From Chloroflexota bacterium (GTDB lineage: Bacteria; Chloroflexota; Anaerolineae; UBA4142), in assembly GCA_016219275.1 (NCBI GenBank), contig JACRBM010000040.1, positions 248,001 to 312,000 on the forward strand: a stretch of 64,000 bases of DNA, written 5' to 3'. The notes beneath the pieces are model-generated. The model worked only from the letters and a program-made list of their open reading frames with translations. It was not told where the DNA came from and made no database searches. Position numbers and translations under genes: made by a program. Shown here in pieces: positions 26,395 through 53,757 of the stretch. Each line of letters begins with the position of its first letter. The first letter of the stretch is position 1.

Positions 26395-26428
26395 ACACTT
26401 GCCCTGGCGGGAACGCAAGTGCCAGGGT
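26395..26428. repeat. 34-base palindromic repeat, copy 1
   Basis: The sequence ACACTTGCCCTGGCGGGAAC... with CTTGCCCTGG and the later CAAGTGCCAGGGT as partners is identical over 34 bases to 44339-44372. Copy 1 sits directly upstream of the gene starting at 26455. Confidence 0.75.
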
Positions 26429-33970: not shown

Positions 33971-34377
33971 CCATCCTTGCGAAGGTTGCCGAAACACCTA
34001 CGAAAGCAACGATTCTTGGCAAAGCAATACCTTCGCCAATTTATTCCTTCATCCGCGAATCTCACGAATCTTCGCTCATTTTGTTTTTTATTCGAGACTG
34101 TAGCATGCCCGCCGGTAAAATGGCAATTGAAATTGCCCCGCGTGAGCCGTTGGCTGGTCGCCCGCCTACGCCGGCGAATTTCGCGTCCACGAAGGTGGAC
34201 GCCCGGCAGAACACCCACCAAGGGCGATTTCAATCGCCCCTGTCGGTCGCCATGCTACACTGTCTTTTATTCGCGGGATTCGCGTTATTCGCGGATCAAT
34301 TTATGATATTGGCGAAGGTGTTGGCAAAGGAAACTGCATTTCAATCCAACACGCGTTCGAACCTTCGCAAGGGTAAG
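33971..34377. repeat. Nested long palindrome between livK and the DUF2270 gene
   Basis: Outer arms carry CCTTGCGAAGG, ATACCTTCGCCAAT and ATCCGCGAATC, and are mirrored by GATTCGCGTTATTCGCGGAT, ATTGGCGAAGGTGTTGG and CCTTCGCAAGG. In the middle sits a second palindrome (34099-34259) with ends TGTAGCATG/CATGCTACA and internal CAATTGAAATTGCC and GGGCGATTTCAATCGCCC. The outer palindrome is related to 44257-44577. No gene is present. Confidence 0.7.
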
Positions 34378-43497: not shown

Positions 43498-44093
43498 GCG
43501 GCGCCTCCCATGATTTGCGCGTCGTCCTGGGTTTCCAACTCTTTGGCTTTGGCGAGGATCGCTTTCAGTCCGTCCATGCCCTTGATGCGTTTGGGCGTGA
43601 AACTGATGCGTCCTTTCGTGACCATACTCACACCCATGTCGGCGATCTTGAACACGCCGAACGGATTGTGCCGCAGCATGTGTTGCGACATCAGACCCAG
43701 TTCGAACGCGCGTCCATAACTCTCGACGGTTGCGATAAACGTCTTGGAAAAATCCGGCGCGGTCGAATCGTCGAACAACTTGGTCTTGACGGAGAAGCGC
43801 TTCAAGGTGTACATCAGATCGGTGACGTGCACCTCTTGCGGACAGCGCACCATGCAATAGTAGCACGACACACAAAACCAGGGCGTGTTACTCTGCAGGA
43901 CTTGATCTTTCATCCCCGCGCGTACCATCGCGAAGAGTTGCCGCGGGGTGTGGCGCATGTCGGGACCCGAAGGGCACGAGCCGCCGCACGTGCCGCACTG
44001 AATACACATCACGAGGCGCGGATCGCCGGGGGTGGCGGCAACGACTTGATCGAGGAATGTGATCGGGCGTACCGCCGGCGTGGTTTGGTGCAT
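43494..44093 (-). CDS. hdrC: Heterodisulfide reductase subunit C (HdrC)
   Basis: A 199-residue iron-sulfur protein. ATG 44093 follows AAGGAGGG. The longer open frame to 44270 runs into the promoter region and is rejected. Two [4Fe-4S] motifs are CIQCGTCGGSCPSGP (near residue 30) and CVSCYYCMVRCPQEV (near residue 74). It passes electrons between HdrA and HdrB. First gene of the hdrCBA-mvhDGA operon. A shared regulatory region lies about 110 bases upstream. Confidence 0.92.
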   Translation of the reverse strand: MHQTTPAVRPITFLDQVVAATPGDPRLVMCIQCGTCGGSCPSGPDMRHTPRQLFAMVRAGMKDQVLQSNTPWFCVSCYYCMVRCPQEVHVTDLMYTLKRFSVKTKLFDDSTAPDFSKTFIATVESYGRAFELGLMSQHMLRHNPFGVFKIADMGVSMVTKGRISFTPKRIKGMDGLKAILAKAKELETQDDAQIMGGAA

Positions 44094-44250: not shown

Positions 44251-44338
44251 AAGAACAATACCTTCGCCAAATCGTTTTCGCCCGTTTTTTATCCGCGTAT
44301 AACGCGAATCTCCGCTAATTTTTAAATTCATTCGCGTT

Positions 44339-44372
44339 ACACTTGCCCTGGCGGGAACGCAAGTGCCAGGGT
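44339..44372. repeat. 34-base palindromic repeat, copy 2
   Basis: Identical over 34 bases to 26395-26428 (begins ACACTTGCCCTGG, ends CAAGTGCCAGGGT). It sits near the centre of the larger palindrome. Confidence 0.75.
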
Positions 44373-44397
44373 TCGCGTTATTCGCGGATGAATTTAT

Positions 44398-44550
44398 GCA
44401 ATACCGCAAAACTCACTTTTTGTCATTCTGAGGAGCGGCTCTTGAAAACGCGCAACCAAGTGAATTCAAACAAGCGACGAAGAATCTCGCCAGTTGCTTG
44501 AGCGATCCTTCGCTTCGCTCAGGATGACAAAGCGAGTTTTGCGCTTTTGC
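44398..44550. mobile_element. Palindromic mobile-type element (family M) with 8-bp target duplication, nested in an older palindrome
   Basis: 153 bp with 22-base inverted ends GCAATACCGCAAAACTCACT and (reverse-complemented right end) GCAAAAGCGCAAAACTCGCT. It is flanked by GAATTTAT at 44390-44397 and 44551-44558. The related uninterrupted site at 34296 reads CAATTTATGATATTGGCGAA without the insert. The interior is a second palindrome with TGTCATTCTGAGGAGC and GCTCAGGATGACA. No transposase is encoded. Confidence 0.8.
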
Positions 44551-44586
44551 GAATTTATGATTTTGGCGACGGTGTTGTAAAAATAA

Positions 44587-44615
44587 AGACCTTTCAGGTG
44601 TGCCCTGAAAGGTCT
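44587..44615 (-). terminator. Intrinsic terminator of the fdh operon
   Basis: Arms AGACCTTTCAG and CTGAAAGGTCT with loop GTGTGCC. On the - strand it is followed by TTTATTTTT. It lies 14 bases past the stop of the second fdhE. Confidence 0.85.
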
Positions 44616-44629
44616 GACTATCTTACCCT

Positions 44630-45439
44630 TTACACTCCGACGTATCCCTTATCGCGCGCCGCCACATCCATTCCAAGCGTCAGCACGCGTTCCGCCGCCA
44701 AGATAGCCGGCGGTTCCATGTAGCGCGCGTCAATCGCTTTGAGATAGCGTTGGCATTTGTCGCACACGTACAGCCAGTACCCCGCGTCCTCAAAGTAACT
44801 GTCCGCGCCGTCGCCGCAGAACGGACAGCCGACGCGGCTGAATCGCCATTCGGTATCGCACCGCGAACAGAGCAGACGCCGCGCATCACCCTTTTCCAGC
44901 GCGGCGAAATCCGGCGCGCCACCGCAAAACGGACACGACCCCAGATACCACGGCGCGCTGGCGAGCCACGATTGCCAACGTTCCGCCTCGGCGCGGAGGA
45001 AGGGACGCAAGGTGTGATTCAGCGCGACACGTGCCAGCGGAAACTCTGGATTATTTTCGGCGTCCGCGATTTCTTCATCGGCGAGGTACGCGCCGACGAG
45101 CGACACGAGCCGCTCCGCCGGCAACTGAGCGATGCATGCAATCGCCTCTGCGAGGTCGGCGCGGTGCGTGGCGATGATGAAGCAGACCTGGGTCCATAGT
45201 TCGGCGACGCGCGCCGCGTCCGGTTGCCACGCGAGCAGAGTAAGTAACGGTTCGCCGCGATCGAGCGCGCGCGCGGCGCTCTCGCCGTCTAACGCGCGCG
45301 CGGCATTGGCAAACGCGATCGGCGCGCGCGCTTGAGCTTGGATCAAATCCGCGTGCAACGCGATGACATCAACCAGGTCGGGATGTGCCGACCTGGCTTG
45401 ATCTAACGCGGAAAGAATGCGCGAATAACTGGCAATCAT
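44630..45439 (-). CDS. fdhE: FdhE-like formate dehydrogenase accessory protein (second copy)
   Basis: A 269-residue soluble protein. The C-terminal Cys pairs are CPFCGGAPDF (near residue 173), CSRCDTEW, CPFCGDGAD and CDKCQRYLKA, the same arrangement as the copy at 35373-36209, although the sequences are clearly diverged. It probably assists maturation of the formate dehydrogenase encoded by the same operon. Its start directly follows the NrfD-type gene stop. The last gene before the terminator. Confidence 0.88.
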   Translation of the reverse strand: MIASYSRILSALDQARSAHPDLVDVIALHADLIQAQARAPIAFANAARALDGESAARALDRGEPLLTLLAWQPDAARVAELWTQVCFIIATHRADLAEAIACIAQLPAERLVSLVGAYLADEEIADAENNPEFPLARVALNHTLRPFLRAEAERWQSWLASAPWYLGSCPFCGGAPDFAALEKGDARRLLCSRCDTEWRFSRVGCPFCGDGADSYFEDAGYWLYVCDKCQRYLKAIDARYMEPPAILAAERVLTLGMDVAARDKGYVGV

Positions 45440-53556: not shown

Positions 53557-53757
53557 ATCAAGTTTTTGGGTGGTGAAAAAACGCAATACCGCAAAAGTCA
53601 CTTTGCCTGAGCGTGTTTTGAGCGTGATTCATGCAATTCTGAGTGTGCCCAAAGTGAGTTTTGCGCTATTGCGAAAAAACCTTGCGAAAGTTGAACGGCA
53701 ATCATATTTGATTTGTCGTCAAAACCTTCGCAAGGTTGAGTGTTCCAAAATTTTGAC
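53557..53757. repeat. Palindromic repeat family R1, copy 3, split by an insertion
   Basis: The left part (TCAAGTTTTTGGGTGGT) and right part (CTTGCGAAAGTTGAACGGCA through CCAAAATTTTGAC) reconstitute the 102-bp R1 unit once 53583-53672 and one 8-base duplicate are removed. The rest of the gap 53412-53877 shows no gene. Confidence 0.8.
53583..53672. mobile_element. Palindromic mobile-type element (family M), short copy with 8-bp target duplication
   Basis: 90 bp with inverted ends GCAATACCGCAAAAGTCACT and (reverse-complemented right end) GCAATAGCGCAAAACTCACT. It is flanked by GAAAAAAC at 53575-53582 and 53673-53680. The empty equivalent is seen in R1 copies 1 and 2 (GGTAAAAAACC). It shares termini with 44398-44550 but has a different, shorter interior. 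Confidence 0.85.

Follow-up and report, generated by a model that had tools for sequence, protein, structure and literature searches.

Nezha, NEMIS, RUP, ERIC and similar elements are listed as bacterial MITEs (PMC3733652), and the element described here is likewise short and non-coding, has terminal inverted repeats, duplicates its target and occurs as dispersed intergenic copies alongside a partner IS whose ends match its own. It differs from them in that its core itself belongs to a free-standing repeat family of the REP-like kind. Among insertion sequences, the Mutator-like prokaryotic group (p-MULT) comprises IS256, ISH6, ISLre2 and ISKra4/ISMich2/ISAzba1 and is defined by a DDE triad with a C/D-x2-H motif 11-19 residues after D2; its members have 18-39 bp inverted ends with a terminal C, generate 8-9 bp duplications and, in the five described families, carry a helical insert of 99-138 residues between D2 and E (PMC3942029). 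REPs of the CGTC/TGTC type have a TGTC tag followed by AT, a stem of 8-9 bp, a loop of 4-5 nt and a CCA-like tail; no dedicated transposase is known for the TGTC-tagged ones, and REP dimers have been noted inside longer palindromes (PMC3733652).

We studied a stretch of 64,000 nucleotides (hereafter the window) from a 6.16-Mb draft genome in 107 contigs, whose relatives are Chloroflexi/Anaerolineae-like. We found that a 153-bp unit in the window is a MITE, that is a non-autonomous DNA transposon, which recently jumped into an older and different MITE. An insertion of this sort is in itself of a known kind, and the unusual feature is the REP-like palindrome that serves as its core. The features of the locus are as follows.

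44256 to 44577, plus strand: host element, an older MITE ("MITE-H") with ends CAATACCTTCGCCAAA and TTTGGCGACGGTGTTG; 161 bp once the 153-bp insertion and the 8-bp duplication are subtracted
44340 to 44371, plus strand: 32-bp REP-like palindrome CACTTGCCCTGGCGGGAACGCAAGTGCCAGGG in the host, between tandem copies of TTCGCGTTA (44331-44339 and 44372-44380)
44390 to 44397, plus strand: left target duplication GAATTTAT; most uninterrupted host copies have one GAATTTAT at the same place
44398 to 44550, plus strand: 153-bp MITE, with near-identical copies at five further insertion sites in the genome
44398 to 44419, plus strand: terminal inverted repeat on the left; of the 25 bp from here to 44422, 24 are identical to those of the full IS at its left end
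44421 to 44529, plus strand: core TGTCATTCTGAG...CTCAGGATGACA, of a free-standing REP-like repeat family with relatives in G010 and other genomes
44529 to 44550, minus strand: right terminal inverted repeat, reading GCAAAAGCGCAAAACTCGCTTT on that strand
44551 to 44558, plus strand: right target duplication GAATTTAT
53575 to 53680, plus strand: second MITE, 90 bp (53583-53672), with the same ends and an 8-bp duplication GAAAAAAC, without the TGTC core
34025 to 34323, plus strand: further MITE-H-type element, 299 bp, with a 6-bp duplication; its right end is the comparator used in the initial annotation

The initial annotation had described an 8-bp duplication around a 153-bp unit with 22-base inverted ends and a different palindrome as its interior, and this description holds: GAATTTAT is exact on either side, the two ends are inverted over 22 nt with 86% identity, and the core fills the space between them. 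The element is palindromic throughout and has no coding capacity, and an Rfam search of its region gave no match. At up to three mismatches, the end motif has four matches in the 64-kb window, where 0.01 would be expected; two of these lie outside the 153-bp unit and bound the 90-bp element with its exact duplication.

Among the matches listed, the 153-bp MITE occupies six insertion sites in the genome with 94-100% identity, and the other genomic copies stop at the same bases. The 8-bp duplications are exact at each of the five sites for which both flanks are visible (GAATTTAT, CTTTTTTG, GAATAAAC, GTTTTTTC and GTTTTATC), the last of these belonging to a complete copy on C53 (94% identity). Because the MITE is repeated in the genome, seven contig ends stop inside it; pairing these ends by their flanks recovers three sites across assembly breaks (C11/C73 with CTTTTTTG, C33/C46 with GAATAAAC and C77/C72 with GTTTTTTC), and the end on C74 has no partner. 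When C11 and C73 are joined and the element is removed together with one duplication, a solute-binding-protein frame is whole (Pfam SBP_bac_8, E 3e-41), whereas with the element in place the same gene runs into a stop after about 11 codons. Further empty sites are provided by eleven paralogous MITE-H copies that carry the 32-bp palindrome (91-98% identity, among the matches listed) and in which the GAATTTAT region is free of the 153-bp insertion. The window copy and the contig-end copies differ at one position (99% identity), which indicates that the burst of this MITE is recent. A preference for palindromic targets was considered and dropped, only one insertion in this genome lying in the host family and another in a gene.

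The initial annotation saw no transposase nearby. This holds for the locus itself, but elsewhere the genome contains at least ten occurrences of an IS that has the same ends. At ten further contig ends GCAGTACCGCAAAACTCACTTTTTG precedes the beginning of a transposase gene, six more hold the transposase C-terminus with the right end, and four pairs of IS flanks show exact 8-bp duplications (C9/C82 GTAATTAC, C10/C29 CTATTTAC, C32/C58 GTTTTTTC and C81/C49 GGAAAAAC). The IS interior is absent from the draft assembly, the transposase of this genome being readable at the two ends and in one deleted copy only; a deletion derivative of the IS is found on C16. The IS is complete in a relative (G016), where it spans 1,802 bp with a 581-aa open reading frame and is flanked by a duplication of 7 bp, not 8 bp.

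The 581-aa transposase scores 24.5 bits against Pfam PF00872 (Transposase_mut, Mutator family; cut-off 21) and 30.1 bits against NCBIfam NF033543 (IS256), the latter being far under the 150-bit cut-off and placing the protein outside the IS256 family proper. In the alignment of three homologues, namely this transposase and two divergent ones, D170, D226, C247xxH250 and E482 are invariant. Judged by its sequence, the IS thus encodes a divergent transposase of the Mutator/IS256 superfamily (p-MULT-like). With p-MULT elements it shares the DDE triad and the C-x2-H motif, ends of the form GC...GC that start with G (the terminal C lying on the other strand) and the duplications of 8 bp, exact in the four pairs above. 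It differs from them in the distance between D226 and E482, which is about 255 residues compared with an insert of 99-138, and its C-x2-H motif, about 20 residues after D2, falls just outside the published 11-19. Since none of the five described families has so long a D2-E stretch, we place the protein in the superfamily and not in a named family, and it is probably a divergent branch of p-MULT. A PDB sequence search with the transposase returned chance matches only.

The discrete ends and copies, the 8-bp duplications, the empty sites and the IS with the same ends and a transposase gene were all observed directly. Together they bear out the proposal, made from the window alone, that a small non-coding element had actually transposed, and the discrete copies, duplications and matching IS identify the unit as a MITE that is most likely mobilised in trans.

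When 84,980 species genomes were scanned by pattern, 110 stretches were found, nearly all of them in Chloroflexi/Anaerolineae drafts. Over all fetched loci, and counting distinct end pairs 55-400 bp apart, in-register 8-bp duplications were exact in 37 of 67 pairs and had at most one mismatch in 51 of 67, compared with 7 identical 8-mers out of 4422 in a mismatched-flank control that combined flanks of different elements. The target motif is SWWWWWWS, with G/C in 89% at both outer positions and A/T in 85-93% at the six inner ones. When the end pairs are clustered, the interiors vary while ends and duplications stay constant, as predicted if one transposase family recognises the ends. A literature search on the core sequence, on MITEs in Anaerolineae and on MITE-captured REPs found no paper describing the 153-bp MITE family.

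Several members of the wider family show features of their own. A Lake Pavin MAG (G060, JAPLHB01; e.g. L091, L149, L160) holds a large and variable MITE family of 136-330 bp, in which p-MULT ends enclose mosaic REP-like interiors. In a related MITE on C44 of G006 (L064 / L130), the left end GCAATACC is replaced by TCAATCCC, which equals the octamer that follows the right duplication and creates a 16-bp direct repeat that could be due to gene conversion or mis-templated repair. End pairs of the family also occur outside Chloroflexi, in Desulfamplus magnetovallimortis (L123) and Armatimonadetes (L096); they have no exact 8-bp duplication, and horizontal transfer is possible.

The MITE would be moved by this IS rather than by a close relative. 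A different transposase, with ends that fit GCAATAGCGC... better than those of this IS, could be proposed on the grounds that one end of many MITEs is of the GCAATAGCGC type and that several MITE-rich genomes lack a transposase match (none was found in the MITE-bearing genomes G002, G037, G060 and G061). We consider this unlikely, because the near-perfect match of the first 25 bp to the IS left end includes bases past the shared terminal repeat, and because the multicopy IS of this genome yields duplications of equal length at the same target motif. Speaking against this IS, the right end of the MITE is diverged from the IS ends, agreeing by inspection at 17 of 21 positions.

Next we considered the core, TGTCATTCTGAG...GGATGACA (TGTCA...TGACA), which is found in other genomes in a free-standing repeat family without these ends; in G010, free-standing relatives have 72-76% identity over about 110 bp and are devoid of the 153-bp MITE ends. 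On both sides the core reads TGTCAT, that is the TGTC tag followed by AT, and its hairpin ATCCTGAGCGAAGCGAAGGAT shows, by inspection, a stem of 9 bp that contains two mismatches, and it lacks a CCA tail. The core shares with CGTC/TGTC REPs the TGTCAT start, the ATGACA end, the inverted arrangement and the sets of imperfect hairpins, but its stem is broken by mismatches and the CCA tail is missing, so that the comparison is one of likeness: at the sequence level, the core resembles TGTC-tagged REPs. MITEs with p-MULT ends and a TGTC-type core are present in G000, G006, G002, G060 and G061, and as CGTC in G037; as a rule, on at least one side, the end sequence runs for 20-23 bases and the core then follows directly. 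The MITE may have acquired its core from the free-standing repeat family.

REP-like cores were also found in other settings. Three copies of another element in the genome of the window, with TATACTG ends, contain the same kind of TGTC core. These TATACTG...CAGTATA elements (G000 C14:17255-17406, C44:32997-33146 and C96:2903-3054; L256-L258) have counterparts in G060 (L219, L221, L222), and may be IS630-like with a TA target. For cores without p-MULT ends, inverted flanking sequence exceeded the 95th percentile of the mismatched-flank control in 14 of 57 cases and the 99th in 9 of 57, an excess which indicates that REP-like cores lie inside other palindromes more often than by chance. In a nearest-neighbour comparison that does not decide between one capture and several, 13 of 58 free cores were nearest to a carried core and 3 of 50 carried cores nearest to a free one, a mostly assortative pattern with some mixing.

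The membership of the core in a free-standing REP-like family, together with the adjoining 32-bp palindrome that resembles a REP insertion without target duplication, could suggest that a REP-like palindrome was inserted by a REP/IS200-type (RAYT, HUH) mechanism, the GCAATACC ends being simply part of the palindrome. HUH transposition (IS200/IS605) produces no target duplication, whereas here each 8-bp duplication begins precisely where a GCAATACC end stops, elements with unrelated interiors (clusters 1 and 3) have the same ends and duplications, and an IS with a DDE transposase has these ends as well, which makes such a mechanism highly improbable. The 8-bp repeats and inverted ends could instead stem from dispersed repeats that recombined or underwent gene conversion, with no transposition. 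This fits the position of the site inside a dispersed repeat and the near-identical repeats that break the assembly, but hardly any credence can be given to it when the flanks at the other sites are unrelated, when each of those sites has an exact 8-bp duplication of its own and one is inside a gene, when none of the examined sites share flank sequence beyond the duplication, and when the control pairs are so rarely identical.

The palindrome that hosts the insertion belongs to a second MITE family, unrelated to the 153-bp MITE. MITE-H elements have the ends CAAYACCTTCGCCAAA / TTTGGCGAAGGTRTTG and measure about 121 bp, rising to about 162 bp when the 32-bp REP-like palindrome is present, and exact flanking direct repeats of 4-7 bp accompany 17 of 26 copies examined, compared with 2 of 650 mismatched-flank controls; the copy in question (44256-44577) has an imperfect duplication only (TTTAAGAA / TAAAAATA). 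The initial annotation had matched this host to an uninterrupted region at 34290-34320, which is indeed of the same repeat family, as the end of the 34025-34323 element, but is a diverged copy with CAATTTAT at the target. The stacking of repeat layers that it reported is real and goes one layer further, through the 32-bp palindrome in the host. This palindrome sits at the same place in 12 MITE-H copies and is absent from the shorter ones, and the 153-bp MITE is present in this copy only, which gives the order host MITE, palindrome, 153-bp MITE. One MITE-H copy (L208) has the tandem TTCGCGTTA without the palindrome, and this repeat therefore need not be a target duplication.

The 32-bp palindrome also occurs free elsewhere, including window positions 26396-26427. 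In most copies seen (26396-26427, 44340-44371, L309, L310, L311, L312, L313, L314, L315) it lies inside other repeats or palindromes, among them TGTC-type and GTCATTGCGAG-type units, and a clear target duplication is lacking. The MITE-H-type element at 34025-34323 contains yet another inserted palindrome, ACTGTAGCATG...CATGCTACACTGT.

An FdhE-like gene (44630-45439, minus strand) and a 4Fe-4S HdrC-like gene that starts near 44093 (minus strand) flank the 153-bp element, which sits in the intervening gap. A hairpin at 44587-44615 followed by a T-rich run on the minus strand resembles an intrinsic terminator, and the element lies downstream of it. As a single strand, the element folds better than 200 of 200 shuffles (z -3.9), and the operon downstream may be affected.

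Collectively, it is very probable that the MITE consists of the ends of an IS256/Mutator-superfamily IS around a REP-like core, and that the IS transposase of the genome moved it in trans into an older MITE. Under this explanation, the terminal inverted repeats of the p-MULT-like IS would enclose the TGTC-tagged REP-like palindromic core, and full-length IS copies in the same genome would supply the transposase. By homology, the enzyme would bind the MITE ends of about 22 bp and then cut, and the element would be joined to a staggered 8-bp SWWWWWWS target whose repair leaves the duplication. At this locus it landed in a GAATTTAT within the right arm of the older MITE, an unrelated element in which a 32-bp REP-like palindrome was already present.

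Taken together, these results document in an uncultured lineage a recent MITE transposition with its partner IS, target motif and empty sites, at a locus where palindromes are nested, a MITE with a REP-like core lying inside a MITE with a different REP-like palindrome. More tentatively, and with considerable doubt, MITEs might be a general vehicle that spreads TGTC-tagged REP-like palindromes in Chloroflexi, these having been captured several times by different ends (p-MULT in at least five genomes, TATACTG, ATTATCGG and others), amplified, and left as seemingly free repeats once the ends decayed. The recurrence of REP-like cores inside MITEs is, although unproven, the part worth following: should such hitch-hiking of REP-like cores prove general, it would supply a testable explanation for the movement of REPs that have no known transposase, which PMC3733652 leaves unanswered.
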